Shown here one piece after another: positions 1 through 21,700 of a DNA stretch of 63,321 nucleotides. How positions within the stretch are numbered: the stretch's first letter is position 1; each line of letters starts with the position of its first letter. Below the pieces are notes generated by a model. The model made no database searches and was not told the DNA's origin. It saw only the letters and a list, made by a program, of their open reading frames with translations. Location of the stretch: positions 1-63,321 of the forward strand of contig JABHLH010000019.1 of assembly GCA_018692925.1 (NCBI GenBank), read 5' to 3'. The DNA comes from an archaeon (GTDB lineage Archaea; Nanobdellota; Nanobdellia; SCGC-AAA011-G17; GW2011-AR17). The position numbers and the translations under genes are program-made.

Positions 1-722
1 AAACTGATACAGGGACAAATGCTTATTGTAATGCAACAAATGTTTGTTCAAGTTTAGGAAGATGTTCTTATGATTCAGACTGTGGAGAATACCTTTGTGA
101 TACAAGTATAGGTTATTGTTATGATAGCTGTACTGATGATTCAAACTGTGATACCAGTGCAGGAGGAAATGCATATTGTAATGCAACAAATGTTTGTTCA
201 AGTTTAGGAAGGTGTTCTTATGATGCAGATTGTGGAGATTATCTTTGTGATACAACAACAAATTTCTGTTATGATAGCTGTACAGATGATTCAAATTGTC
301 AAACTGATACAGGGACAAATGCTTATTGTAATGCAACAAATGTTTGTTCAAGTTTAGGAAGATGTTCTTATGATTCAGATTGTGGAGATTACCTTTGTGA
401 TACAACAACTAATTTCTGTTTTGATAGCTGTGTTTATGAAAGTACAGAAACAGATGAATTAGATATCGATGTAGTAGTTGAATCAGAATGTGATACACCT
501 AGAGATTGTGTAGACCTTTATGATCCAAGATATAGATATGTTTGTGACGAAGGTGAATGTTTACAAAGAGGATTATTAGGAAAAAGACCACCTCGAAGTA
601 CTAGCTCAGGTTCTGGTATGGGTGCTGCAGAGAATGAAGGTTTCTTCTCAAAACTCTGGGAAAAGTTATTCTGGGGAAGATCAGATTCTAACTTGGAGAC
701 ATATGCTGTTGAAAGTGGATGA
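1..722 (+). CDS. Cys-rich tandem-repeat surface protein (5' end outside window)
   Basis: The frame is open from base 3 to the TGA at 720-722; the start lies upstream of the window. The visible 239 residues hold three copies of a 50-residue (150 bp) unit. Each unit has two Cys-rich half-modules, with signatures such as GRCSYDSDCG.YLCDT and DSCTDDSNC followed by NAYCNATNVC. The spacing (DC-x5/6-C-x4-C) suggests small disulfide-bonded modules of extracellular proteins. A fourth, diverged Cys module (ECDTPRDC...VCDEGEC) follows, then a Ser/Gly linker and an acidic end with no C-terminal membrane helix. A related Cys motif occurs near the C-terminus of the giant protein at 12778-24168. Function unknown; extracellular location is inferred from cysteines and sequons. 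Confidence 0.75.
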   Translation, partial: TDTGTNAYCNATNVCSSLGRCSYDSDCGEYLCDTSIGYCYDSCTDDSNCDTSAGGNAYCNATNVCSSLGRCSYDADCGDYLCDTTTNFCYDSCTDDSNCQTDTGTNAYCNATNVCSSLGRCSYDSDCGDYLCDTTTNFCFDSCVYESTETDELDIDVVVESECDTPRDCVDLYDPRYRYVCDEGECLQRGLLGKRPPRSTSSGSGMGAAENEGFFSKLWEKLFWGRSDSNLETYAVESG

Positions 723-2678: not shown

Positions 2679-3089
2679 CTAGTCTTGAGAGGTGGAGATC
2701 CAGAAGTAAATTGTTTCTCCAGAATCTAAGTCAATAATAACTTTAGCTGAATCAAAGTTTTGAGAGATTACAAATGACTCCTTTATGATTGCTTTTGAAG
2801 AATCTTCTAATGTAATACTTGAAGAACCTAATTCGCCTATATCTTCACCATCATCAAATTCAATGTAAACATCATATGTATATGTATTAGTAGTTTCTAA
2901 GTTATTTGTTATAGAGAATGAAAATTCATACGTTTCTCCTAATTCTATCTCTGAAGGTAAAGCTTCAGGATTTTCAAAGTATAATTCTGTGAAATTTGCT
3001 TCAGTTCTATCTACAACATGAAGTAAAGTGATTACTAGTAATACAATAATACAAGAAACAGCTATTAAACTCCATTTATCAGATTTCAT
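2679..3089 (-). CDS. Small membrane-anchored Ig-like (DUF1616-like) protein
   Basis: 136 residues. A short cytoplasmic N-terminus is followed by one membrane helix (LIAVSCIIVLLVITLLHVV, about residues 8-26) and a beta-sandwich. The sequence TELYFENPEALPSEIELG and the pattern FSFSITNNLETTNTYTY resemble the extracytoplasmic half of DUF1616 proteins, which begins FTEFY/L and has a similar N.E...Y.Y strand. It starts inside the stop of the upstream membrane enzyme (ATGA overlap at 3086-3089), so the two are translationally coupled and may act together at the membrane. DUF1616 proteins often sit in archaeal glycosylation clusters, which fits. The assignment is by pattern only. Confidence 0.6.
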   Translation of the reverse strand: MKSDKWSLIAVSCIIVLLVITLLHVVDRTEANFTELYFENPEALPSEIELGETYEFSFSITNNLETTNTYTYDVYIEFDDGEDIGELGSSSITLEDSSKAIIKESFVISQNFDSAKVIIDLDSGETIYFWISTSQD

Positions 3090-4777
3090 GAAAAACCTCC
3101 TGAGTACAATACTACATCTCCAGAATCATATAATCTATTCAAAGATTCATAATCATCATCAATAGTCAAAAGAGTTACAGAATTTTTACTTTCTGTTTCA
3201 GCATAGAATATATACTTAAGGAATTTATTGTAATTTAAATCTAACCTATCACTTGATTCTTCTACTAACAAATAATAAATTTCATCTGCTTCAGATACAT
3301 CAATGATCCAATCACCAAAAGCAAAATCATACTCATCCCAATAAACCTTTGTATCAAAAATAGAAGGATCTTTTGAAGTTACTATCATACTTGGAATTAT
3401 TAATAAAATCAATAAAACTACAATCAAAGTTTTTCTTTTTATTAAATAAGGATATAATCTTAATACCATAAAAGGTATGATAAAGAAAAGAGAATAATTA
3501 ATGACCCTAATCATCCAATTATCAAAATTGGTAGTCATTACTAGTGAAAGAGCTAAAGTTATTGCCCCTAAAATAATATAACAAAAAGAAATATTCATAA
3601 AAAAAGAACTATTTAGAACATCATCCTTAATTTTAATCAAATAAGTTAATACATAAACAAAAACTAATGTAATAATAATATTAGGGATTTGTAATAATAA
3701 CATCAAAAGAAAAGAATTATTGTAAACACCTAAGTATATATCGCTCCTAATTACAAATTGAAAGAAAAATGCAAACAAGATAATGTAAGTTAGGAAAATG
3801 AAAAAATAAAATTTATTTTTATTAATAAAATTTGGAACAAGATTCATAATTTTTTTAGCTTTATTCTTCAACAAGATAATACAAATAATTAAGACTAATG
3901 CAGTTATTAAATATGCCAATATTAAAGGTAAAGGATAAGCCATATTTAATGTTGTAAGAAACAAACTTGAAGACTGATTAAAGGAATATTTTACATTCTG
4001 ACTAACCTCACTATAAGGAAATGCTTCAAATCCAAATAGAATAATCATAAATAAACCATAAGAGAGTAAAGATATAATGTTTGATAATTTTTCTTTTTTA
4101 TTATTTAGATATATAATTGCTGATAAACAAATACAAATAGCTATAGTAATTAGAAAAGAAATCATATGGAAATAGTAAAGAGCTGTTAATAAAACAAATA
4201 AAAATATTTGTTTGAAATAATCATTTGTTTCATTATAAATAAACCAAAAGTAATATATAACTAAAACTACAAAAAGCATTCCAATTTGTTGTGGTCTTCC
4301 TTCAATAAGAGGATAAATCAAATAATTAGTACTTAGTAAAAATATTGTAGCTAAATAAGAAGCAGATATATTTTTTGTAACTCTATTAATTATTAAAAAT
4401 ATAAAAGGAAGAGTTATAGTTGTAATAATTAATGAAAAGATATATAATCCTGAACTCAAAAAACTTGGAAATAAAGAGTAAAATAACTCAAGTAAAGATC
4501 CATATCCTGGACCAGAAAGACTACAATCAGATTCTACATTACATTCATAATAATTTGCAAGATAATTTGCTTCATCAGTTGTTGCTAAAATAGATCCACC
4601 ATAAACCATCTCTCTAACATAAAGACCTACAAAAAGACCAATTAATAATAAGAAAATTATTGCAATTATAGTAGAATACTTCTCTTTTGAGTTATTATGA
4701 ATATACATAAATGAAGATACTACAAATAAGACAAAAAATACTAGATATATAATTCCAAATGCTTCAACCATAGCCAT
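3086..4777 (-). CDS. Polytopic membrane glycosyltransferase-like protein (GT-C fold)
   Basis: 563 residues with about 12 predicted membrane helices. The first extracytoplasmic loop carries an acidic motif (ATTDEANYLANYY, D68-E69), the position used by GT-C enzymes for substrate and metal binding. The later EGRPQQIG segment recalls loops of PMT/ArnT-like enzymes. Such enzymes move a sugar from a polyprenyl-phosphate carrier to lipid or protein outside the membrane. The extracytoplasmic C-terminal part (about residues 450-563) has strand-rich text ending YSGGFS. It opens a two-gene unit with the DUF1616-like gene and lies in the glycan cluster. A TATA-like CCTTATAAAT near 4793-4803 places the start of transcription at about the ATG, so the mRNA is probably leaderless. 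The donor and acceptor cannot be read from sequence. Confidence 0.6.
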   Translation of the reverse strand: MAMVEAFGIIYLVFFVLFVVSSFMYIHNNSKEKYSTIIAIIFLLLIGLFVGLYVREMVYGGSILATTDEANYLANYYECNVESDCSLSGPGYGSLLELFYSLFPSFLSSGLYIFSLIITTITLPFIFLIINRVTKNISASYLATIFLLSTNYLIYPLIEGRPQQIGMLFVVLVIYYFWFIYNETNDYFKQIFLFVLLTALYYFHMISFLITIAICICLSAIIYLNNKKEKLSNIISLLSYGLFMIILFGFEAFPYSEVSQNVKYSFNQSSSLFLTTLNMAYPLPLILAYLITALVLIICIILLKNKAKKIMNLVPNFINKNKFYFFIFLTYIILFAFFFQFVIRSDIYLGVYNNSFLLMLLLQIPNIIITLVFVYVLTYLIKIKDDVLNSSFFMNISFCYIILGAITLALSLVMTTNFDNWMIRVINYSLFFIIPFMVLRLYPYLIKRKTLIVVLLILLIIPSMIVTSKDPSIFDTKVYWDEYDFAFGDWIIDVSEADEIYYLLVEESSDRLDLNYNKFLKYIFYAETESKNSVTLLTIDDDYESLNRLYDSGDVVLYSGGFS

Positions 4778-4831
4778 ATGCGAACACCACTCATTTATAA
4801 GGTTTTTGCCCCTGAAAAGGAGTAATGAGAA

Positions 4832-5767
4832 CTATAATTCCAAAAAGATCTTTTTTTTCTTTGAAAACTCAAGAGCCTTCCTGTAATCTTTTTCTAAAAT
4901 CTTAGATAATTCAGAAGGAAGTTTAAGAGAAGAATAAGACTTTTTACTTTTTTTTGTTAGAGGTAAAAAAGAAATAAATTTAGAAAATAAAGCTAAAGGG
5001 TTAACTTTCTTTACCCATTTATGGCCATAAAATAACCCTAGTTTAGATAATATTTTCTGAGCTAATTTCATAAACCAAATAATTACATGTTCAATGCTAA
5101 CAATAATTTCTCTATAAAATACAGGTTGTGTTGCTGAAATAATAGTTGGATTGGCACTTAATTCTTTAATTTTAATTTTTTCAAGATTAAGCCAATCAAA
5201 TACTTGATCTAAAGTTTTATTAGGATTTTTCCATAAATCTTTACTATCAATTATTAATAAATTATTTCCGAAAAGATCATAATAATCTTTTATTACTTTC
5301 TCATAAAGAAAAGTATCTAAATCTTTCATCAAATATTCTTTCATATACTTATTAAAATCTTTAACTCTATGATTCCTATAAAAAAAGTTATAAGTACTAT
5401 GTGCTCTAGCAATAGGATTCCTAAGAACTAAAATAACTTTTGCATCAGGAGAGAATAACTTAATTTTTTCAGCCATCTTTTTTCCAGTAAAAATGTAAGG
5501 TTGACTACCATCAATTCTAAAAGAAAAATTTTCTTTTTCTTGATATATTTTTTTGTATCCCTCCATATTTATCCAAGGAATATTCTTTTTTTTATTTCCT
5601 CTCCACCAAATAGGAGAGAGTATTGGTTTTGAATATAATGAACTTGGTTCTTTAGGAACACCTAGAAATATTTTAGGATGTTGTCCTAAATATTCACATA
5701 AGGAAGTACTTCCAGTTTTAGGAAAACCAGGTACAAATAAATTAGGTTTCCAAGAGGTTATTTTCAT
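4832..5767 (-). CDS. PAPS-dependent sulfotransferase
   Basis: 311 residues. The 5'-phosphosulfate-binding loop is PGFPKTGSTSL at residues 13-23, with the usual Lys and Ser/Thr. The 3'-phosphate-binding motif is KVILVLRNPIARAHSTYNFF at about 110-129, with R116 and S124. This is the layout of the Sulfotransfer_1/heparan-type family, which moves sulfate from PAPS to sugars or proteins. It faces away from the flippase gene at 5828 and shares its promoter region. With a second sulfotransferase at 7096-8022, it suggests that the surface glycan made by this cluster is sulfated. No PAPS synthesis genes are visible in the window. Confidence 0.88.
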   Translation of the reverse strand: MKITSWKPNLFVPGFPKTGSTSLCEYLGQHPKIFLGVPKEPSSLYSKPILSPIWWRGNKKKNIPWINMEGYKKIYQEKENFSFRIDGSQPYIFTGKKMAEKIKLFSPDAKVILVLRNPIARAHSTYNFFYRNHRVKDFNKYMKEYLMKDLDTFLYEKVIKDYYDLFGNNLLIIDSKDLWKNPNKTLDQVFDWLNLEKIKIKELSANPTIISATQPVFYREIIVSIEHVIIWFMKLAQKILSKLGLFYGHKWVKKVNPLALFSKFISFLPLTKKSKKSYSSLKLPSELSKILEKDYRKALEFSKKKKIFLEL

Positions 5768-5786
5768 AATTTCAAATTAAAGCAGA

Positions 5787-5815
5787 AGGTTTATATATTT
5801 ATCCCTTTTTAGGGA
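5787..5815. promoter_or_regulatory. Divergent promoter region with short dyad
   Basis: Between the divergent sulfotransferase (start 5767) and flippase (start 5828) lies GGTTTATATATTTAT, usable as a TATA element for either direction. Right after it is a perfect dyad, TCCCT-TTTT-AGGGA (5802-5815). Its position between TATA and the flippase start is suitable for a regulator, but it could be chance. Confidence 0.4.
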
Positions 5816-5827
5816 AAACAAAGGAAT

Positions 5828-7069
5828 ATGAGAGAGAGAATAAAAAGAACAATAATAAAAAGTAAAAATGACGATTTAATAAAAAGCTCTTTTTTTCTTA
5901 TAAGTAATACTGGAACAGTTTCAATTTTAGGTTTTTTATTTTGGACATTGGCAGCATGGTTATTTACGGTTCAAGAATTAGGTTTAGCAACAACAACAAT
6001 TTCTGCCCTTAGTGTTATTTCTTCTTTCGCTTCATTAGGACTGAGTGTTGCTTTACTAAGATATATGCCTAATGAAAAAAATAAAGATAAACTATTTTGG
6101 AGTGCTATTTGGATTTCAGTATTATTATCAATTATATTAACAGGGGTATTTATATTTGTTTTAAAATGGATCTTTCCAGAATTAACTTTTATTCAAGAAT
6201 CACTTATTTTTATAATAATCGTATTAATTTCAGGATCAAGTGCAGCCCCATTTAAATTAATTGAATCCTTGTTTCTTACAAAGAGAAAAAGTTCCTATGT
6301 ACTAAGTAAAAATTCACTTTGGGGAATCCTAAGACTTTTAGGATTAGTTATTTTAAAATCATTTGGAATGATTGCATTAGTTATTGCTTGGTTTTTTTCA
6401 CAAATTATTTCGACAGTTGTATATTTGAAATTAATGAAAGAAAAAGTTGTTTATGGGATTGATAAAAAATCTATTAAAAAAATGCTCCCTTTAGGAATGG
6501 CAAATTATATTTCAATGATTTCTACAAAATTTCAAGAAATAGGTTTCCCATTATATGTTGCAATCTTATGGGGAGTAGAAAGTACAGCTTATTTTTATAT
6601 CAGTTGGATGATTGCAAATAGTTTATTTGCGGTATCAAGATCTGTTGGGATGAGTTTCTTAACTGAATCTTCACATAATAAAAATACTTCATTTAAAAAA
6701 GCCCTTGGGATTACTTATGGGATTACAATTTTAGGAATTGTTTTAGGATTAATTTTTGGGAAATCTGTATTAAGTATTTTTGGTGAAGCATATGTGAGTA
6801 ATGGATTAGCACTCTTCAAAATATTATTGTTCTCTAGTGTATTCTTTGGATTTAATCAACTTATGTTAATGTATTACAATTTTAAAGAAGAAAAAGGATC
6901 AGTCCGTTGGATAAATTTTAGCATTGTTTTGTTAACTATCATATGTAGCACTTTCTTCTTATCAAAAGGTGTAATTGCGATTGGAATAGGCTGGCTTATT
7001 GCAAATTTTATTGTTTTTTTAATCTTAGGAATAAAATCAAAAAAAATTTTATTTAATCAGAAAGCTTAA
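5828..7069 (+). CDS. Wzx/MATE-like polysaccharide flippase
   Basis: 413 residues with about 12 membrane helices and short polar loops, the shape of the polysaccharide biosynthesis (Wzx/RfbX, MOP superfamily) exporters. Early segments such as LGLATTTISALSVISSFASLGLSVALLRYMP (read as two pieces) match the family pattern of a small-residue-rich helix followed by a basic loop. Such proteins flip lipid-linked oligosaccharides across the membrane. It sits directly before the second sulfotransferase and opposite the first, so it is the likely exporter for the glycan assembled by the neighbouring glycosyltransferases. The ATG at 5828 follows AAAGGAAT, a modest ribosome binding site. Confidence 0.8.
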   Translation: MRERIKRTIIKSKNDDLIKSSFFLISNTGTVSILGFLFWTLAAWLFTVQELGLATTTISALSVISSFASLGLSVALLRYMPNEKNKDKLFWSAIWISVLLSIILTGVFIFVLKWIFPELTFIQESLIFIIIVLISGSSAAPFKLIESLFLTKRKSSYVLSKNSLWGILRLLGLVILKSFGMIALVIAWFFSQIISTVVYLKLMKEKVVYGIDKKSIKKMLPLGMANYISMISTKFQEIGFPLYVAILWGVESTAYFYISWMIANSLFAVSRSVGMSFLTESSHNKNTSFKKALGITYGITILGIVLGLIFGKSVLSIFGEAYVSNGLALFKILLFSSVFFGFNQLMLMYYNFKEEKGSVRWINFSIVLLTIICSTFFLSKGVIAIGIGWLIANFIVFLILGIKSKKILFNQKA

Positions 7070-7095
7070 AAAGTGAGATTACTTATTGAAAAATT

Positions 7096-8022
7096 ATGAC
7101 AGTTGAAATTGTGGTTAATGGATATTATAGAAGTGGAACAACCTTAGTCTGGAATTTGATGAAGGAGGGAATAAAAAATCATGTTAGTTTCTATGAGCCC
7201 TTACACCCAGACTTACCTCAAGTTATTAATGAAGATAAAGAAAATAGAATTCATAAGTATAAATTGTGGCAAGAATATTTAAAATTGAAACCAGTAGTAT
7301 TAGATAAACTTTTTAGATGTCATCCAAATTTAGGAAAAAATACAATTGATAGAGATTCGGAATTAAAAGAATATTTTGATATATATCATAATATGAATGA
7401 AAAGATCATATTACAAACTAATAGATCTCATTTCTTTTTAGATTTAATAAAGAAAGAGTATAATCCAAAAGTTGTACATATTATTAGACATCCAATAGAT
7501 GTTTATTCCTCTATGACAAAAATGTATTTAGATGTTGAAATTAATTATTTAAAAAAAGGATTAAAAAAATCTTTATTTTCTGTTGCATTCAAAAAAGCGA
7601 GTGGTTTTGACCTTGAAAAAGAATATAATTGGATTTACCAACACCTAGGATATCCGAAAAATGCTTATACTGATTGGAAAATTAAACATTTAAATAAAAT
7701 ATCTAATTTTGAGAGATTTATGGTTGTTTGGATTATCTCAAATTATTATGCATTAAAATCTATTGAAAGGAATAAAGGATTATTATTAAGTTATGAAGAG
7801 ATATTAACTAAAAAAGGGATTGAAAGATTAGAGAAATTTTTAAAAATAAAAGTAGATAAGAAAACAAAATTAAAAAAAGAGAATTATTATAAATTTAATA
7901 ATAATAAATTAAAGAATATGAAAAAAGTTATTGACAAATTTCAATTAAATGAAGAATGGAATTATATTAATAAAAGTTTGAAAAAAATAGGAATTGATTA
8001 TATTAATTTGAAAAAATCTTAA
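7096..8022 (+). CDS. Second PAPS-dependent sulfotransferase
   Basis: 308 residues. The PAPS 5'-loop is NGYYRSGTTLVWNLM at residues 8-22. The 3'-phosphate site is KVVHIIRHPIDVYSSM at 125-140 with R131 and S138/S139. The rest is Lys-rich and divergent from the first sulfotransferase (4832-5767), so the two probably modify different positions or acceptors. It begins 26 bp after the flippase and is likely in the same transcript. Its 3' end overlaps the convergent GT4 gene by 20 bp. Carbohydrate sulfation is inferred from context. Confidence 0.85.
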   Translation: MTVEIVVNGYYRSGTTLVWNLMKEGIKNHVSFYEPLHPDLPQVINEDKENRIHKYKLWQEYLKLKPVVLDKLFRCHPNLGKNTIDRDSELKEYFDIYHNMNEKIILQTNRSHFFLDLIKKEYNPKVVHIIRHPIDVYSSMTKMYLDVEINYLKKGLKKSLFSVAFKKASGFDLEKEYNWIYQHLGYPKNAYTDWKIKHLNKISNFERFMVVWIISNYYALKSIERNKGLLLSYEEILTKKGIERLEKFLKIKVDKKTKLKKENYYKFNNNKLKNMKKVIDKFQLNEEWNYINKSLKKIGIDYINLKKS

Positions 8023-9127
8023 AAGTTTTTTCAGCTAAATTATCCCAATCCCAGTTTTCTTTTGCTTTTTGAACCCCATTCTTAGATAATTTTGAAGATA
8101 AATCCTTATCATTAAATATTCTCTTAATTGCTTTAGATAATTCTTTAACATCTTTTGGAGGAACTAATAAGCCATTATATTCATTTTCAATAACTACAGG
8201 AATACCACCTATTTTTGAACCTATAACAGGTGTAGCACAAGCGTTTGCTTCAGCAAGAACCATACCAAAACCTTCAGCAGTACTATAAGTTGGTAAAACA
8301 GCTATATCAACATCTCTATAAATTTTAGGTAGATCTTCATCAGGAACAAATCCTAAGAAAGAGACATTATTTTCAATATTTAATTTTTTCACTAATTCTT
8401 TATATCTAGGCAAATAATCACCTTTACCACAAACATATAAATGAACTTTAGGAAACTCTTTTGAAACTTCTTTTAAAGATGAAAGCAAATAATTCAACCC
8501 TTTGTGAGCATGAGTTTTATTTAATTGACTAACAAATACAATCTTTTCATTTTTATTTTTTAAAAATCCTTTTTTAATCTTATTATTAAAAACATTTAAA
8601 TCTACACCAGGAGAAACAATAGCAATTTTTGATTTAAATTTCTTCAAATAAGGAGATTTGTTTACATAATAATCACTAGTAGCTATAATCCCTTTAGAAG
8701 TTTTTAATGTCCTATTTCCTAAAAGTAAGTAATAAAGTTTACAAATATAATCTACCCAATTAGATTTTACTAAATCATTATGATAAGTAATAATTGTTTT
8801 CTTAGGAGCAATAAAATTAACTAAATCCGCAATAAATGGAACAGGCAAATGAGCATTAATTATATCAGGATTTTCTTTTTTGATTATTTTCTTAATTTTG
8901 AAATACCAAAAAGGATTAACAGGAGTATGTGAAACTGTAAAAAGAATAGGTAATCTGTAAATAGTTAAATTTGCAATTTTTTCTTTAATTTCTTGTTTAT
9001 CCTTATGATTAGATGTAATAACAACAACTTCATTTGTTTTAGCTAACCTTTTAGCAATATTATAAGCATAATTTTCTAATCCACCAGTCTTAGGATAGAA
9101 ATAAGGTGTAACAAAGATGATTTTCAT
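8003..9127 (-). CDS. GT4 family glycosyltransferase
   Basis: 374 residues, two Rossmann halves (GT-B fold). The N-terminus MKIIFVTPYFYPKTGGLENY has the acceptor-side Gly loop. The C-terminal half carries the donor-binding region PTYSTAEGFGMVLAEANA followed by ATPVIGSKIGGIPVVI, with the EX7E-type acidic pair that contacts the nucleotide sugar. GT4 enzymes are retaining transferases that build lipid-linked glycans in the cytoplasm. It starts within the stop of the upstream GT4 gene (ATGA, 9124-9127), the last of a three-gene coupled operon GT2-GT4-GT4. Confidence 0.88.
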   Translation of the reverse strand: MKIIFVTPYFYPKTGGLENYAYNIAKRLAKTNEVVVITSNHKDKQEIKEKIANLTIYRLPILFTVSHTPVNPFWYFKIKKIIKKENPDIINAHLPVPFIADLVNFIAPKKTIITYHNDLVKSNWVDYICKLYYLLLGNRTLKTSKGIIATSDYYVNKSPYLKKFKSKIAIVSPGVDLNVFNNKIKKGFLKNKNEKIVFVSQLNKTHAHKGLNYLLSSLKEVSKEFPKVHLYVCGKGDYLPRYKELVKKLNIENNVSFLGFVPDEDLPKIYRDVDIAVLPTYSTAEGFGMVLAEANACATPVIGSKIGGIPVVIENEYNGLLVPPKDVKELSKAIKRIFNDKDLSSKLSKNGVQKAKENWDWDNLAEKTFKIFSN

Positions 9128-10191
9128 TTCAAAGCCTCCATATAATTACTCTCTAGGTTATTAATAATATTTTCCCATAAATAATTTTTTATTTCAAAGT
9201 TTATTTTTTTAGGATTTTTAAGAAATTTATCAATCTTTGCTTTAAAGTTTTCTTTAGTAGCAATAAATTCTTTGTCCACTAAATACATTGAAGCATTATC
9301 TCTTGCTTTCAAAACTAAAGTTGGAGTGCCACAAGCCATAGCTTCTAAAGGTGCAATACCAAAACCTTCCCTCTCCGAAGGGAAAGCAAATAATTTTGCA
9401 GATTTCATATATCCATAAACATCTTCAATTTTTGGAAGCATACCTAAGACTTCAATATTTGGATATTGTTTTGATTTAGCTTTTATTTTTTCAAGTTCTG
9501 GACCTGAGCCGATAATTCCTAAAGTATAATCAGATTTTACTTGATCAATTAAAAATGAAACATTTTTCTCTTTAATCATTCTACCAGCAAATAATAAGTC
9601 AAAAGATTTTTTCTTTTTAGATTTTTTAATCAAATTAAAATCAATACCGTTTGGAGAATAATTCATTTTATTCTTTGTAACTTTTCTTAATCTTCTTTGA
9701 GTTAATCTGGATACTACATTAATGTTAGTGGATAATTTTGCAGAAAGGTTTTCAATAATATAACCAAAAAGACCTTTTGAACCTAAATAATCAAACCAAT
9801 AGTTCCCCCAGTATTCATGCCAAGTTACAAAAAAAGGTTTTCTTTTAATTTTTGAAATAAGCCAGGTTGGAAAAATTGGAAAGTAAGGCATGTGATCAAC
9901 TTCTATAATGTCAAATTTTTCTGAGATTAATTTTGGTAAATGTGCAGTAAATAGTAAAGCTTGTGTAATAGATCTTGTTCCATCCTTTTTGTATAATTTA
10001 TAGTAAGGTGAGATTGCGTGAAGAGTTAATCCATTTTCTTTTTTTATCTGAGGACCTTTCCACCACTTCATTGTATAAATGTGAACATCATGTCCTTTCT
10101 TAGCTAAACCTGTAGAAATTTCAAAAATTCTTTTCTCTTTGCCACCTTTATGATAAGGGTAAACAGCATCTGATACAAAAGCTATTCTCAT
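9124..10191 (-). CDS. GT4 family glycosyltransferase
   Basis: 355 residues from the ATG at 10191. This start makes an ATGA overlap with the upstream GT2 gene and gives the classical N-terminus MRIAFVSDAVYPYHKGGKEK. A longer frame from 10239 would add 16 residues inside the GT2 gene and is less likely. The donor site reads FPSEREGFGIAPLEAMACG, with the EX7E pair. MPYFPIFPTWLISK near residue 110 lies in the acceptor domain. It probably adds one sugar of the lipid-linked glycan. It differs enough from the neighbouring GT4 to have another specificity. Confidence 0.87.
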   Translation of the reverse strand: MRIAFVSDAVYPYHKGGKEKRIFEISTGLAKKGHDVHIYTMKWWKGPQIKKENGLTLHAISPYYKLYKKDGTRSITQALLFTAHLPKLISEKFDIIEVDHMPYFPIFPTWLISKIKRKPFFVTWHEYWGNYWFDYLGSKGLFGYIIENLSAKLSTNINVVSRLTQRRLRKVTKNKMNYSPNGIDFNLIKKSKKKKSFDLLFAGRMIKEKNVSFLIDQVKSDYTLGIIGSGPELEKIKAKSKQYPNIEVLGMLPKIEDVYGYMKSAKLFAFPSEREGFGIAPLEAMACGTPTLVLKARDNASMYLVDKEFIATKENFKAKIDKFLKNPKKINFEIKNYLWENIINNLESNYMEALK

Positions 10192-10916
10192 TTTGCTTGA
10201 TATTTTGCATATGGTTTCCAAGTTAAATTTTTCATCCAAGCATGCAAAATTTTCTTCCCATCACCAATTGGTTGTAATGCAGTATCTCCAGCTCTATGTT
10301 CATAAGAAATTGGAACAGAGTAAATATCAAATTTCATTTTAGCCATTTTTGTGATCATTTCCATTTCAATTGAGAAACCATCAGCTTCTAAATGTTTTGA
10401 AAGTTTTTTTAGAACAGGTCTTTTCCAAGCAAAGTAACCTGTACAAACATCAGTTACATTACCATGATAAAACATTCTTACTAAAAATGTAAAAAACCAA
10501 TTACCAGTTCTGTTGAACATAGTCATACTACCTTCTTTGATTTTTCCACCTAATCTTGAACCAATAACAACATCACAGAAATTTGAATCAAGAGGTTCAA
10601 TTAATCTTAACATTTCTCTAGGATCGTAAGTATCATCACCATCAAGCATAACAACTAAGTCTGTATCTGTAGTAATACTTTTTACACCTTTTCTAATAGC
10701 ATGACCTTTACCTTGCTTTCCTTCAAAAACAACTCTAGCACCAGCTTTCTTAGCTACTTCTGTAGTTCTATCTTTAGAATTGTTGTCAATTACAAGAACT
10801 TCAACTTCATAACCTAAAGCTTTTAATTTTGCTCTAGGAATTTTTGATATAACCTTTGTGATACCTTTCTCCTCGTTGTAACAAGGAACCATTACTGTTA
10901 ATTTTTTCATTTTCAT
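10188..10916 (-). CDS. GT2 glycosyltransferase, dolichyl-phosphate mannose synthase-like
   Basis: 242 residues, a single GT-A domain. Key motifs: VMVPCYNEEKGITKVI near the N-terminus, VLVIDNNSKDRT for the nucleotide, and the DXD-like VVMLDGDDTYDP near 90-101. GKQGKGHAIRKG and DVCTGYFAWKRP match the DPM1-like branch without a C-terminal membrane domain. Such enzymes charge polyprenyl phosphate with a hexose, the donor used outside the membrane by GT-C enzymes such as the one at 3086-4777. First gene of the GT2-GT4-GT4 operon. Two ATGs (10916 and 10910) compete; AAAGGAT lies just before the first and fits the second better by spacing. Confidence 0.85.
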   Translation of the reverse strand: MKMKKLTVMVPCYNEEKGITKVISKIPRAKLKALGYEVEVLVIDNNSKDRTTEVAKKAGARVVFEGKQGKGHAIRKGVKSITTDTDLVVMLDGDDTYDPREMLRLIEPLDSNFCDVVIGSRLGGKIKEGSMTMFNRTGNWFFTFLVRMFYHGNVTDVCTGYFAWKRPVLKKLSKHLEADGFSIEMEMITKMAKMKFDIYSVPISYEHRAGDTALQPIGDGKKILHAWMKNLTWKPYAKYQAK

Positions 10917-11831: not shown

Positions 11832-12781
11832 AAAAAGAGGAAATGAAAATTGAAGATTTACCTGGAGTAGGTGCTGCGACTGCTGAAAAACTAAGAGATG
11901 CAGGATATAATGATTTAATGTCCATTGCTGTGGCAAGCCCTGGAGAACTAACAGAAAGTGTGGGTATGGGAGAAGCTGCTGCAAGAAAAATAATTAATGC
12001 AGGAAGGAATAACTTAGATATGGGTTTTACTTCTGGAGAAGAATTATTAGAAAAGAGAGCGAAGATAATTAAAGTAGGTACAGGCTCAAAAGCTTTTGAT
12101 GAATTAGTAGGAGGAGGTTTTGAATCTGGATGTATAACTGAATGTTTTGGATCATATGGTTCAGGAAAAACAGCTCTAGCAAATCAATTAGCAATCAATG
12201 CTTTAGATATTAATGAAGAAGGTATTCCACAAGCATATGCAATTTGGATTGATTCTGAAAATACATTTAGACCAGAGAGAATTAAACAAATTTGTGATGA
12301 AAATGGTTATGACCCTTTGACAATTTTAAGAAATATAAAAGTTGTAAGAGCTTTTAACTCAGATCACCAAATGATGTGTGCAGAAAAAGTTGAAGACCTA
12401 ATTCAAAAAGAAGGTTTGAAAATCAATATGATAATAGTAGATTCTTTGATGACACACTTTAGATCAGAATTTATCGGTAGAGGAACTCTGGCAAATAGAC
12501 AACAGAAAATTAACAAACATATGCATGTATTAATGAAAATTGCAGACCAGTATAATTTAGTTGTTTATGTGACAAACCAAGTTATGTCAAGACCAGATAC
12601 TTTCTTTGGAGATCCTACAGAAGCAATTGGTGGAAACATTGTAGGACACAATTCTGCTACAAGATTATATCTTCGAAGAGGAAAGAAAGGAACTAGAGTT
12701 GCAAAATTAGTGGATAGTCCTTATCTGCCAGATGGTGAATGTATCTTTAGAATTACTGATAAAGGTATAGAAGATAATTAA
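11828..12781 (+). CDS. radA: DNA repair and recombination protein RadA
   Basis: 317 residues. An N-terminal helix-hairpin-helix region (LPGVGAATAEKLRDAGY, residues 11-27) is followed by the RecA core. Walker A is GSYGSGKT at 108-115, Walker B is INMIIVDS near 196-203, and TNQVMSRPDTFFGDP with GGNIVGHNSATRLYLRRG matches the RadA/Rad51 C-terminal half. It is the archaeal strand-exchange recombinase. GGAGG lies 7 bases before the ATG at 11828, and the start overlaps the preceding small gene by 4 bp. The stop overlaps the convergent giant gene by 4 bp. I see no intein. Confidence 0.96.
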   Translation: MKKEEMKIEDLPGVGAATAEKLRDAGYNDLMSIAVASPGELTESVGMGEAAARKIINAGRNNLDMGFTSGEELLEKRAKIIKVGTGSKAFDELVGGGFESGCITECFGSYGSGKTALANQLAINALDINEEGIPQAYAIWIDSENTFRPERIKQICDENGYDPLTILRNIKVVRAFNSDHQMMCAEKVEDLIQKEGLKINMIIVDSLMTHFRSEFIGRGTLANRQQKINKHMHVLMKIADQYNLVVYVTNQVMSRPDTFFGDPTEAIGGNIVGHNSATRLYLRRGKKGTRVAKLVDSPYLPDGECIFRITDKGIEDN

Positions 12782-15700
12782 TTCTTTTTTTTATTTAAAT
12801 TATCTAAGAGATATATCTGTTCAAGAACAGAATTGTCAACAATAAATATGTCACCAATAGATTGAATATTCTCTTTTTTGACTAAAATATTTTTTCTAAA
12901 GTTATATTTTTTATCAGTTTTTATTATCCAACCATAAACTTTTTTATCTTTTATAATTGAATCCTTGATATAACCAATAAATACCCCATCTTCACTATAA
13001 ACTTCTTTTTCAGAAAAATCTTCTAAATAAAGATAATCTTTTCCAAGATTTATTTTTTCAGGTTTCTTTTTAGAGAGAGTTATAGATTGTTTCAATAGAG
13101 GCCTTTCAGGTAATTCTTCAGAATCAGAAGGGGTTTTTCTTTTCTTAGATCTTTTTTTCTTCTTTTTTAACTTGGTAACTATTTTTTTAGATTCAAAATT
13201 ATTTAATAACTTATTATAAATTCCTTCTAAAGCAATTCTAAAAGACAATAATTTTTTATTTAAATCAAAGCCATTATTCTTTTTGTATACAAGATCAAAT
13301 ATAATTAGACTTAAAATAATAAATATAAAAAACCAAATAAGACTAAGAGAAGATTCTGAACTTTCAAGTTCTATAGCTTCTTCTTCAAGAATTATTTCTG
13401 AATCAGGAGCTAATTCAATTAAAGAATCTTTAAGAGCAATATTCATTTTTCTATAAGATTCAGCATTATAGTTTTCAAAATTTACCTGAACATATAAATC
13501 ATAACTAGCATCCTCTAAATCAGAAGGAAGATTCAAAGTAGTAATTTTAGTTTTTTCTTCAAAGGAACCTAAATAAATTGTATCTTGACCAAGATTGATT
13601 TTATTATTTCCTTCCTGAATCCAAAATTTAATTATTACATCACCATCTATTTCAGCCATACCCTTGATTAAATATTCCAAATTAAAACTTAATTCTTCAA
13701 CTAAAGATTCTATACTTAAAATTTCTACATCAAATAATTTTACACATTCATTTTGATAACAAGTATAACCTTCTTCACAATCTAAATCTATTTCACATTC
13801 GGATACTGAGCCTAAATTATAAGACCCAGAACTACCAGAACCACTACTGCTACTTTCACTTGAAGAATCTTCAACAGGAGTTTCCCTAGCTGAATAAACT
13901 GAAAAACCTTCGACTGTAAAAGTTAAAGTGCCTCCAGTATAAGTTTCTTCAACACAATCATCACAAACAACTCCATCTTTCAAAATTTGAGGAGTTGTAA
14001 AATCTAAATTATAAAGTTTTAATCTTGCATCAACATTTAAACCAGATAAAGCTGTTGAGTTTACTTCAATCCTATTTTGAGAGATAAGGACATGTTTACT
14101 AAAATTAAGAGTGAAATTATCAATATCATTTGAAAGATCAACAGAATCTAAAAAATCTAATTTCCCATAATCAGTCCTAGAAAAAGTTAGATTAACTATG
14201 TTTCTTAAGTCACTTACATTCATTCTAAGTTGAAAATCTGTAGAGTTCCCATCAAACATATAATCATCAATCAAAATAGAATAATTGATTTCAAAAGTTC
14301 TAATTTCACTAATGTTAATATTATTTGCTTGATCAGTACAATTTACAGCCCAAGCATAATTGCTATTTAGAAGATATGAAGTAAAATTATTTGTAGTATC
14401 TTTTTCGGGATTTTCAGAGGATGAATTAATATCATTTTCAATTATCAAACTACAATTTAAAATATCATTAGCATCGGAGACATTATAATAAAAATTTATA
14501 TAATTTGAAGAACTATTTAATATTCCATCTAAAGGGGTTATCAAATTAATTGAAGGTTTAGTTAGATCAATTGTAAAATTAACATTGTCACTTCCTTGAA
14601 GATTTGCAGAATCATTAACCCATAATTCAACTACATGACTTGATTCAGATAAGTTTAAAGTGAAATTTTGACAATTATTAATTGTTTGATTATTCCCTCT
14701 ATCAAGATTATACCAACAACTACTAGTGTCATCAGTTAAAATACTATAATTCAAAATAATACTCTCATTGTAATTAAAATATTCGAAACTGGAAGGAGAA
14801 ATAATATTTAAAACAGGATTTACAGTATCTATAGCAAAACTAAGAAACTCAGTATTATTTAAATTTCCAAAAGTATCATTACAAGAATATCTAACAATAT
14901 AAGACCCATCAGATACAGAACTGTCAGTATAAGTTGCCCCAGTTAAACTATCATTAAGAGAAAGAGAAGAACTAGTTGACCAATTATCAAGACTATAAGA
15001 ACAAGAGCTTAAAGCTTCATTAGAACTAATATTAAAACTTATTAAAGAGCTAATATAAGTTTGAGAAATTGGAGAAATAATAGTTATCAAAGGATTTGTG
15101 GTGTCGATGGAAATACTTCTTGTTGTAGTTGATGCAGAATTACTAGAGTTGTCATAAACAGTAACATTAAATTTATAACTTGCATCAGAAAGACTAGTCC
15201 AATTAATTGATCTTGTTGAAGCTGAAAAAATGGAACTGTTTACTAAAGTGTGATTTGAATAATACAAATTAAAAGTTATATTTGCCTCATCAGTTTCTAC
15301 CACATTAACATTAACATAAATATTGTCCCTAGTTAATTTAGCTTCATCAGCTTCAGCTTGATCTTCATAATTAATTACAGGTGAATTTGTATCAATAGTA
15401 AAATTAACAGACCTGGTATTATTAATATTACCAAAGGTGTCATTACACCAGAATCTTGCAGTATAAGTACTGTCAATTACAGAGAGATTAGTAAAAGTAG
15501 CACCTGTTAAACTACTATTCAATGTCAAACTTGAATTTGTAACCCAATCATCAATACTTACAACACAAGAACTTAAATTTTCATTTGAACTAATATTATA
15601 ACTAATTGAAGAGACAATATAATTCTGATTAAAAGGAGAATCAATTGTTATCAAAGGATTAGTTGTATCTATAGAAACAGTTCTGGTTAAAGTTGATGCA

Positions 15701-18700
15701 GAATTAGTAGCATTATCATAAACTGTAACATTAAAATTATAATTGGTCTCAGAAAGACCAGTCCAATTAATAGATCTAGTTGTATCAGTAAAAGTTGAAC
15801 TGTTTACTAAAGTGTGATTGGAATAATATAAATTATAAGTAATATTTACTTCATTTATTTCAGTCACACTAACATTAACATAAATATTATTTCTAGTTAA
15901 TTTAGATTCATCAGTTTCAGCTTGATCTTCATAATTTATTACAGGTGAATTTGTATCAATAGTAAAACTTGTAATAGAGCTTGCTTCATTACCTAAAGTA
16001 TCATTTGCCCAAACTGTAAGATTATGGCTTCCCTCATTCCAAACCACATTAGTTATATTTGAACAATTACCACCACTACCTAAACTAATATTTACACTCA
16101 TAGTATCATTAGAATACCAACAAGCATCAAGATTGAGATCTGTTACAGTATAGTTTATAATTAAATTAACATCTGAAGAAAAAGAATTATTTTCAAGATT
16201 AACAAAATTTATTATTGGTCCATCAACATCAACAGAATCTATAGTAATAGTACTAATAGTAGTAAGATTTATATTCCCAACATTATCTTTTGAAGATACA
16301 AAATAAGTGTAATCACCGTCAACAAGCCCAGTTGTTGAATTAAGACTTTGGTTAACATATAAATACCATTGAGTGGAATTAATTTTATTTAAGTTTGATA
16401 CATACTGTTGATAAACATCATTTGCACTTAAAGAATTATTCCAGATTTTAAATTCATCCAAAGAACCATTATAATAAGGTTTAGCAAGAGGATATACACC
16501 ATATCCAATTATAATATTATTTGAAGCAGAAGCATCTGAAGAAGTTTTTGAACCAGTAACCTTAAGTGAACCATCAACATATAATTTCATTCCATTTTCA
16601 TCAACTAAAGCAACTGTATGGTGCCATAAATCATCATTATAAGTATCAGTAGTTGTTATTGTTTCTTCAGCCCATAACCTAAAATTCAGATTACCATTCT
16701 GTAAGTAAATATTTCTATCATGATATCCCCAAGATCCGGTTTGACTTGCATCAAAAATACCTGTATTAGGATCTGAAGTTTTAAACCAAAATGAGACTGC
16801 AAAATTAGTTTCAGGCATATCAAAAGAATTCACTTCAATATAATCATCAACTCCATCAAACATAAAAGAGCCACCATATTTTCCAGAAGAGTTATACCTA
16901 GCATCAGATGAACCAAGACCATGATAATTATTAGAACTTAAATCTACTACATAAGAACTATTTTCTCCTAAAGCAGAAACATTATCAAAATTATACATAA
17001 TCATTAAAGAGTTATTATAATAAGTATAATTAGTATTGTTCCAACTATAAATAATTTCATTTAAATTAGCTTCTGAGATAGATAGATTAATTTCAAAGGA
17101 AGAGTTTGTTGTTGTTGAACCATTACCCAAAGTAGGAGAAGTGAAATTTATTTGAGGAAAAGTTGAATCAATAGAAATATTTCTTAACACAGTATTATTT
17201 TCATTTCCAAAATCATCCCTTGCGGAAACAAAATAAGAATAAGTAGCATCATCTAAACTAGTAGTTATATTTTTACTTTGATTAACATATAAATACCATT
17301 GAGTTGAATTAAACTTTCTTAAGTTTGAAACATACTGAGGATATATTTCGCTGGAATCTAAACTTCGATCCCAAATTCTCAATTCGTCAACATTACCATT
17401 CATAAAATTTGAAGAAGTACTACTATGCCAACCACTTAATACTAAAGGATTACTATTTGAAGCTGTAGTCGTAGGAACATTTGCATTATAAGTTAAATCT
17501 CTTTGAATACCATCAAAATAAAATTTTAACCTTGTCTCATTTGTTGCTTGAGTTCCATCATAAACCATGGTCCAATGATGCCAATTAGTATCAATAATAT
17601 CATCTGTAGTATGTGCCCAAGCACTAGAACCATTAGTTACTCTCATAAATACATCATTAGAATCACCATAACCAGCTCCACCAGTACCCATCACTAAAGA
17701 ATTGGTAGTATAATCAGAATCTCTCTTTGAAATTACATAATCCCAAGAACCTATGGAATCATATTTAACCCAAGCACTAATAGTAAAATGTTCAGTCCCA
17801 TCTAATTCATCAACATCACCCATATCTAATTGGCCAAGAGAACCATCAAAATTAAAAGACCCACCATACTTACCAGTTGAAACATAAGTTGCATCAGATT
17901 CAGCAAGACCATTATTTCCATTCCCAGTTAAATCTACAACATAAGTATTATTCTCTCCTAAATCAGAATTATTTTCAAAGTTGTACATTAAAATCATAGA
18001 ACTATTAAAAATAGTATAATTTGTTTCATTCCAATTATAAATCACAGTATCTAAATCAGATTCTAAAATAGATACATTAATTTCAACATTAGTTTGAGAT
18101 TGAGTTAGCCCAGTTACAGGAGTTGGAGAAATAAATTCTAATAAAGGAGGAGTAGACTCTATTGTAAAACTAAGTGAAGAACTATTTATATAATTCATAC
18201 TATCATTTATCCAAATTGTAAGATTATGATTTCCTTCTAACCAAACAACAGAGCTTATATTTACACAATTATCTAAACTAGTATTTCCACTCATACTATC
18301 ATTGCTGTACCAACAAGTACCTATGTTTTCATCAAAGTAAGTAAAATTAATATCTAAATTTGGATCTGATGAAGTTGTACCATTTAAAGGTAAACTAATA
18401 TTTATAGTCGGATAAACAGTATCTATTGCAAATTTAATTGAGCTAGAATTTTCATTTCCGGCACTATCATTTGCCCAAATCGTAATATTGTGATGGCCTT
18501 CTATCCAAATTACATCAGTTATATTTGCACAATTATCTAAAGTAGTATTTCCACTCATACTATCATTACTATACCAACAAGAATCTAAAAAAAGATCTGA
18601 AACAGAATAATTAATATCTAAACTAAGATTATTAGTAAAAGTATTATTTGAAGGATAAATAATATTTATTGCTGAAGGAGTTGTATCAATAGTTACAGTT

Positions 18701-21700
18701 TTATTTATAGATACAAAATTATTTCCAGCCCAATCAAAAATTTCATAGAACCAAGTATAAACACCATCTACAAGATTTATAACAATTCCCAAAGTTCTTT
18801 CTAAAGCACTCTCTGAAAAATTAATAGAAGTTTGATTTACTAAAACCCCAGAAGAATTATAAATAAATAAAGTTGCATTTTTAATTCCAATATTATCTGT
18901 TAGATTAACTGTGAAATTTTGTGAGGAAGAAGATTGATAAGTATTATTATTAGGTGAGACTAAAATCTCTTCAGGAGAAGTTAAATCAATTGCAAAAGTA
19001 ATTACACTAGAGTTTTCATTTCCAGCACTATCATTTGCCCAAATAGTAAGATTATGCTTCCCTTCAGTCCAAATAACACTAGTAATATTTTTTCCACAAG
19101 TAATACTTGTATTCCCGGTATATGTATCATTAGAATACCAACAAGAATCTAAGAAAGTATCAGAGACAGTATAATTAATTGCTAAGCCAGTATGATTTGC
19201 ATAAGTATTATTTAAAGAAGTCAGAATATTTATTGCAGGTTCTGTTGCATCAATAATTACAGAATTATTTAAGTTAGAATAATTATTTCCAGCCCAATCA
19301 AAAACTCTATAGGACCAAGTATAATTTCCATCAGGAAGAGCTACAAGAATCCCAGTATTGGAAGATAAGACATACTCTGAAAAATTAGTAAAAGATTGAT
19401 TAACTAATTCGCCTGTGACATTATAAATAAATAAAGTTGTATTTTTAATCCCTCTATTATCTGTTAAATTAACTGTGAAATTTTGAGAAGCTGGAGTTTT
19501 AAAAGTATTATTTTCGGGGGAGATTAAAGTTGCATTAGGATTTACTAAATCAACTGTAAAAACTATTGAAGAAGAACTTTCATATCCTCCACTATCATTT
19601 GCCCAAATAGTAAGATTATGTTTTCCTTCAGACCAAATTACATCAGTTATATTTGCACAAGTCCCATCATCACCTAAACTAAAATTTCCAGTCATAGTAT
19701 CATTGGAATACCAACAAGAAGACAAATTAAAATCAGAAGTAGAATAATTAATATCTAATTTTACATCATTAGTATAAGTATTATTTGTAGGTTTAATAAA
19801 ATTAATAATAGGACTAGTTGTGTCAATAGATAAAGTTCTATTTTCAGTTATGAAATTATTTCCAGCCCAGTCAAAGAGTTTATAGAACCAAGTATAAATC
19901 CCATCTGCAAGATCGACCATTATCCCAATTGAATCTCCAAGGATATTTTCTGAAAAAGATCTGAAAGTTTGATTTACTAAAACTCCAGAAGAATTATAGA
20001 TGAATAAAGTAGTATTCTCTACTCCAATATTGTCAGTAAAATTCATTGTAAAATTATGAGAACTTGAAGTTAGATTAAGAGTATCATTAACTGGACTTAT
20101 AATAGTTGCATTAGGATTATTTACGTCAATTGTAAAAATTATAGAACTATTTCCAATATTTCCAGCTGTATCATTTGCCCAAATAGTAATATTGTGTCTT
20201 CCTTCTGTCCAATTTATATCAACTATATTATTACAAACACCAGCAGTACCTGAACTGATATTGATACTCATTGTATCATTTGAATACCAACAAGAATCGA
20301 GATTAGAATCAGAAACAGAATAATTAATATCTAAATCTGTATTTGAAGAATAAGTATTATTTGTTGGTGAAAGAAATGTAATAGTAGGAATAGTCTCATC
20401 AACCCCACTAACATAAGTTCCATTTGATAAAATAGTTAAATTTAATTTGGAAGTAATATCTCCTAAATCTTGCTGAGAAGTTTTATTTGCAAATACAAAA
20501 AACTCATAAGTCTCATTTACAGTTCCAGTTGCATTTACCCACCAGCTTATTGTTGTTGACTCATCTTGATTTAAAGTTAGATTATAAGGATTAGTTCCAT
20601 TTGTATAAAAAGGAGTAGTTCCTTCAATAGTTGAAATAAGACCAGATTTACCTGAGGCATATCCAGGAGGCAAAAAAGTTACAGCCATCTCATTATAAGA
20701 ATCAGGTGCATCAGTATCTAAAAATAGATAGTTTGAAGAATCATAATTTAATCCAATATTTCTAGAGGCATAATAAGACATACTATCTGGATGATATTGA
20801 ATTTTGATCTTACCATCTTCATATAAAATTACTTGATAAGTCAAGAGAGTAGATCTGTAACTATAATGAGCTAAATCAGTATATTGAATAATTGCCCTAT
20901 TAGGATTTGTAGCATTTTTGTAATAAACCTGTGTTGCAGAAACAACATACATGTCATTATTTACTGGAGAAATTAATTTATAGGAGCTACTAGGTATAGA
21001 TAAGGATGTACTTCCTGCACTAGTAGTAGTAAAATGAATTCTTCCATTTGAAGAAACATAAGCTGTTGAATAATTGGAATCAAAAAATGGAAAATCTATA
21101 TCTAATGTTGCAGTCTTATAACTGTCATCTGAAGTTTGACCTGTTGCCCATAATGCTACACCACCATCTCCAATAATTTCTTCCCATTCATATGCGTCTC
21201 CTAATGACTCTGTATTATTATAGGCAGTATAATTTGTACCAGTCCCTAAGATAGGATCTAAACTAATATTAACTTCACCACAATCATTATTCAAACAAGT
21301 AACTTTTGCTTGAACTTGAAAAAATTGGTTTTGAGTAACATTAAAATGATCAGTAGGAGAGATCCAAGTTAGATTAATTACAGGTATAGTACTTGTAAAA
21401 ACTACAGATTCACTTGCTAAATTACCAGAACTATCATTACAAAAAACTGTCCAATTATGAATTCCCCCTCCACTATCAAGACTAGTAAAATTAATTCCTG
21501 CAGTTTCTAAACTAGAATTAGTTGCACCATTATCTTTTGAATACCAACAATTACCACCACCATTAGTATCAAAATAAGTATAGTTGAAATCATTTATTGA
21601 AATATCATAACTTAAATTTAAAGGATAAGTAATGTTAAGAATTGGTGTAGTTAAATCTCGAATAGTAACATTCCACTTTGAAGATATATTACTTATAGAC

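Follow-up and report, generated by a model that had tools for sequence, protein, structure and literature searches.

The DNA analysed here (the window) spans positions 1 to 63,321 of a 144,466-base contig (C10) from the draft genome of a small archaeon of woesearchaeal type. The draft comprises 985 kb on 19 contigs and its completeness is rated 100%. Close to the start of the window lies a gene cluster with two predicted sulfotransferases, ST1 and ST2, a flippase and several glycosyltransferases (GT), of which an initial annotation had placed seven genes between positions 3086 and 10916. All seven were found as intact open reading frames (ORFs) at or near their annotated positions, and six of them gave Pfam family matches over the cut-off, the exception being a membrane protein at 3086-4777.

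The genes are arranged in three tight runs, with a 4-base overlap or a gap of less than 60 bases between several of the neighbours. The first run, on the minus strand, holds ST1 (4832-5767), the membrane protein, a DUF1616-like gene (2679-3089) and a surface protein gene (1550-2536). It is followed on the plus strand by the flippase (5828-7069) and ST2 (7096-8022), and again on the minus strand by a GT2 enzyme (10188-10916) and two GT4 enzymes (9124-10239 and 8003-9127). Judged by synteny, the DUF1616-like and surface protein genes belong to the cluster, making it slightly wider than 3086-10916. The G+C content of that interval is 26.0%, compared with 29.4% in the remaining window; low G+C is common for glycan islands.

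Predicted enzymes of the cluster

As initially annotated, two distinct sulfotransferases flank the Wzx-like flippase, each with Pfam matches over the cut-off: ST1 matches Sulfotransfer_3 (PF13469, 45.2 bits) and Sulfotransfer_1 (PF00685, 43.8 bits), and ST2 matches Sulfotransfer_3 (32.3 bits, cut-off 27). By these two families they are the only sulfotransferases in the draft. Their motifs mark them as two different kinds of cytosolic sulfotransferase. ST1 carries a lysine-type loop (PKTGST) for 3′-phosphoadenosine 5′-phosphosulfate (PAPS) and, as the 3′-phosphate PXXRXXS helix, RNPIARAHS; ST2 carries an arginine-type PAPS loop (YRSGTT) and the 3′-phosphate helix RHPIDVYSS. Both loop types and the PXXRXXS motif are described in passages of a sulfotransferase review (PMC11625862).

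The ST1 residues R116 and S124 are unchanged across six aligned sulfotransferases. As a single sequence ST1 matched PDB entry 3rnl with E=4e-12, and a profile built with five relatives matched the same entry with E=1e-50, followed by the heparan-sulfate enzymes NDST1 and 3-OST. No named close relatives of ST1 were found in genome contigs; its best relative among the fetched loci adjoins a CysQ-CysD-CysNC-CysC set in genome G065. For ST2, the assignment as a sulfotransferase is proposed from its PF13469 match together with the motifs, and an AlphaFold model from two sequences reached a predicted local distance difference test score (pLDDT) of 35. A search with the ST2 pair across 371 genomes of the phylum returned two strong members, from the present genome and from genome G036, and two further matches (20.0 and 18.6 bits) whose short aligned stretches lie outside the motifs. 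In the collections searched, relatives of ST2 are limited to these two archaea. A viral or mobile origin of ST2 was rejected, as no relative occurred in viral contigs or phage records.

The flippase, of Wzx/MATE type, matches Polysacc_synt_3 (PF13440) with 32.4 bits, over the cut-off. The annotated DPM1-like GT2 and the two GT4 enzymes were likewise recovered by Pfam, with 93.5 bits for the former (Glycos_transf_2, PF00535) and 151.9 bits (8003-9127) and 94.4 bits (9124-10239) for the latter (Glycos_transf_1, PF00534). The best NCBIfam match of the GT2 is AglJ (TIGR04182), at 186.9 bits and below the cut-off of 325, which makes it an AglJ/DPM1-like candidate for a dolichyl-phosphate hexosyltransferase. 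The second GT4 probably starts near 10191, at an internal ATG, because 4-base overlaps with both neighbours would then result.

The membrane protein at 3086-4777 has 563 AA and 12 hydrophobic segments; two adjacent acidic residues, D68-E69, stand in its first long loop, and its ORF overlaps the DUF1616-like ORF by 4 bases. The gene and its polytopic character thus agree with the initial annotation as a GT-C-like enzyme; the GT-C identity itself gained no support from family or structure, and the likeness is one of topology. Comparison with PDB sequences gave no match of note, and the single-sequence AlphaFold model had a pLDDT of 43. The DUF1616-like product is a small membrane-anchored protein that matches PF07760 with 26.4 bits, below the cut-off of 31.6, and the surface protein has a signal-like N-terminus and a C-terminal membrane segment.

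Conservation of the cluster and a candidate glycan acceptor

In Candidatus Woesearchaeota archaeon RIFCSPLOWO2_01_FULL_28_39 (G036), which belongs to another family of the same order, a related cluster occupies a whole 9.8-kb contig in a different gene order. The flippase shares 27% identity over 396 AA with its counterpart there (L035:1563-2714), and ST2 aligns over its full length at 43-45% identity (L035/L039:4406-5368) with both the loop and the 3′-phosphate motif kept. A GT4 of the G036 cluster is 27% identical to a GT4 of the window, the DUF1616-like protein is 45% identical over 124 AA (L035:8394-8906), and the surface protein is 53% identical over 159 AA to a partial gene (L035:9369-9845). 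BLAST found no relative of ST1 on the G036 contig, nor any match of the 563-AA protein on that contig, including the membrane protein of its cluster. As these five proteins are shared, a core of the cluster is maintained between families of the same order, and the rest of it changes.

The initial annotation had proposed a search for the oligosaccharyltransferase AglB, and this enzyme is indeed encoded, on another contig (G000:C16:26555-27385), with an STT3 match of 54.4 bits and the motif WWDYGYW. A candidate acceptor lies near the cluster on the minus strand (12778-24168), where a giant surface protein of 3796 AA carries Big_13 (Ig-like) and Laminin_G_3 domains and a membrane segment near its C-terminus. 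It holds 214 N-x-S/T sequons, or one per about 18 residues, compared with 98±8 in 300 shuffles. Of its Asn residues, 48% are followed by Ser or Thr at +2; the share is 16-29% for offsets +1 and +3 to +8 and 19-24% for offsets -1 to -8, and N-P-S/T does not occur. This pattern supports N-glycosylation of the surface protein, but not the use of the cluster's own glycan for it.

A 150-base tandem repeat (2.8 copies, 87% matches), part of the gene for a probably secreted, Cys-rich repeat protein, is cut by the contig start (window 1-722). This repeat is the likely cause of the assembly break.

PAPS supply in the draft and across the phylum

Genes for sulfate activation, for which the initial annotation had also proposed a search, were not detected in the 985-kb draft: neither of the two enzymes expected of self-sufficient PAPS-dependent sulfation, ATP sulfurylase (Sat or CysDN) and adenosine 5′-phosphosulfate (APS) kinase, was found. 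Of two matches to the PAPS_reduct family (PF01507), one reads as a tRNA-thiolation-type protein and the other as an asparagine-synthetase fusion, and neither as CysD. The result differs from that for vent DPANN archaea, for which the part of one study available to us (PMC8091004) reports sulfate adenylyltransferase genes in all of its genomes.

We then related sulfotransferases to APS kinases in the same 371 genomes. The sulfotransferase count covers PF13469, other sulfotransferase families lying outside it. APS kinases were counted at 60 bits or more, a threshold set after a gap had been seen (the next best genome reached 25 bits), with at most 10 first-look candidates scored per genome; an order-level search of 103 genomes, in which all candidates were scored, agrees for the shared genomes. 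PF13469 was present in 33 genomes, in 30 of them over the cut-off (G036, G211 and G390 fall below it), and APS kinase in 31. Both occurred together in 13 genomes, the sulfotransferase alone in 20, the kinase alone in 18 and neither in 320 (Fisher p=1.4e-7, uncorrected for relatedness). In 11 of the 13 genomes with both, the two genes are 0.7-7.3 kb apart, and in the other two they are on separate contigs. Several of these loci also hold CysD and CysN, and CysQ was seen at seven fetched loci; for G065, NCBIfam models over their cut-offs back the naming of CysD, CysQ and APS kinase.

Among sulfotransferase-bearing genomes that are at least 90% complete, 11 of 20 are without the kinase. At the sulfotransferase loci of the 19 other orphan genomes, those with a sulfotransferase and no counted kinase (L030-L035, L080-L093), no relatives of CysC, CysD or CysQ were found. 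Eight of the 20 orphan genomes (G083, G085, G229, G321, G337, G356, G394 and G397) have at least 7.3 kb assembled on both sides of the sulfotransferase, so that their orphan status is not merely an effect of contig breaks; within the phylum, orphan sulfotransferases seem to be genuine. The remaining 12, including the present genome and G036, have the sulfotransferase nearer to a contig end; in the window, with 4.8 kb between the contig start and ST1, orphan status could be such an effect.

Several unusual gene arrangements were noted during the survey. Fusions of about 305 AA join a very short HxGH-type nucleotidyltransferase domain (about 125 AA) to an APS kinase (L094:8100-9011, L101:10378-11292 and L098:5439-6350); they directly follow CysQ in L094 and L101 and are possibly miniature PAPS synthases. 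In L096:9242-10561 an APS kinase is fused to an inositol-monophosphatase-family (CysQ-like) domain in a 440-AA protein, which would couple the making of PAPS to the removal of 3′-phosphoadenosine 5′-phosphate (PAP). CysQ, CysD, CysNC, CysC and a sulfotransferase stand in a row in L029:8313-13260, so that a small archaeon with a 0.9-Mb genome on two contigs has the full set for sulfation. In L027:11266-16117, ORFs that resemble NeuB, NeuA and NeuC of the synthesis of sialic-acid-type sugars, as read by eye from the ORF starts, lie near CysNC, CysC and a sulfotransferase.

Proposed function and comparison with known systems

We slightly favour the view that the locus is a surface-glycan assembly cluster, in which a lipid-linked glycan would be built, sulfated in two steps and exported. 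The AglJ-like GT2 would place the first sugar on dolichyl phosphate and the two GT4 enzymes would lengthen the glycan; ST1 and ST2 might each sulfate one position at the cytosolic face, the Wzx-like protein would flip the finished product, and AglB could transfer it to surface proteins, among them the giant one with its dense sequons. We infer the order of the steps, the substrates, the sulfation itself and the import of PAPS. The gene set thus fits the assembly, sulfation and export of a sulfated lipid-linked glycan, as initially annotated, and a PAPS source is the part that found no support. The joint absence of such a source and of an oligosaccharyltransferase had been named as telling against this glycan: the former was not found, in a draft, and the latter is present.

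Several results weigh against this assembly cluster. No ATP sulfurylase match (PF01747) was found in the draft, and its sole APS-kinase-family match scores 19.6 bits and reads as a MinD-type ATPase, as compared with at least 61.5 bits for the kinases counted in the phylum. A query for CysQ, the PAP phosphatase, gave no match in the draft, an empty result that shows little since it had no positive control. ST2 had no match in the PDB and its profile aligns with that of ST1 at the P-loop only, and the sole Pfam match of the 563-AA membrane protein, DUF6057, is below the cut-off and leaves it without a family. The conserved surface protein at 1550-2536 contains no sequons, and the cluster glycan could equally be a polysaccharide or glycolipid outside the reach of AglB.

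For the supply of PAPS, a partner cell and genes missing from the draft carry similar weight. That the archaeon no longer activates sulfate itself and obtains PAPS, or a different sulfate donor, from a partner cell for its surface glycan is offered tentatively, as a rather unlikely idea. Under it, the 20 orphan genomes among the 33 that bear sulfotransferases would point to a widespread metabolic dependence, and the sulfated coat would be bound up with contact to a host that activates sulfate. It is quite possible, at somewhat less than even weight, that the organism has its own PAPS genes in an assembly gap and is in no way unusual. The short distance between sulfotransferase and kinase in 11 of 13 genomes, the contig start inside a tandem repeat 4.8 kb from ST1 and the G036 cluster that fills its contig all point that way, against which stand the completeness rating of 100% and the eight orphan genomes with long assembled flanks and no cys genes.

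The sulfotransferases might instead act on membrane lipids, proteins or a small metabolite. Families PF13469 and PF00685 have very diverse acceptors, and an acceptor cannot be read from sequence; yet both genes are interleaved with the flippase and glycosyltransferases, ST2 stays with the flippase and a GT4 in G036, and heparan-sulfate sulfotransferases are the nearest solved relatives of ST1 after 3rnl, so we consider another target unlikely. We regard it as quite improbable that the two are inherited remnants without PAPS, kept as mere binding proteins or on the way to being lost. Such a fate would suit the lack of PAPS genes in the draft and the rare, patchy distribution, the ST2 family being confined, apart from chance-level matches, to two of the 371 genomes, but both ORFs are intact and ST2 has kept its loop and 3′-phosphate residues at 43-45% overall identity.

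A 2024 review, in the part available (PMC11625862), lists sulfotransferases of Woesearchaeota (via PF03567) and Pacearchaeota as uncharacterised. In titles and abstract openings of the open-access literature we found nothing on orphan sulfotransferases, or on a division between PAPS-linked and orphan ones, in these archaea, and this split within one phylum may be new. It offers a direct genomic test for the import of an expensive activated nucleotide. Archaeal sulfated glycans are chemically proven in few lineages only, and a sulfated coat would be a marker that can be stained in enrichments.

Islands in other archaea of the phylum (G065, G190, G211 and G106) contain sulfotransferases, as the window does, in several cases among glycan genes; they differ from it in having CysD, CysN and APS kinase beside the sulfotransferase, with CysQ in three of the four. 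ST1 resembles heparan-sulfate NDST and 3-OST and PDB 3rnl at the profile level, distantly, where the PAPS loop and the PXXRXXS motif lie. ST2 shares PF13469 and the arginine RxG loop with NodH-type enzymes, a likeness of motif, not of sequence alignment, and differs from them in that its relatives, in the collections searched, are confined to two archaea; passages of the same review (PMC11625862) place NodH in PF13469 by its RXG loop. Halobacterium salinarum makes a dolichyl-phosphate-linked tetrasaccharide with two sulfated hexuronic acids that is moved to surface proteins, according to the part of a report available to us (PMC8674786). The window differs from this N-glycan pathway in its Wzx-like flippase within the cluster and in that no PAPS source was found, and the likeness concerns the glycan and its pathway, the Halobacterium sulfotransferases being outside the comparison. 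By this analogy, the cluster would be best matched by the pathway that Halobacterium salinarum uses for its lipid-linked glycan, supplemented with a Wzx-like flippase.

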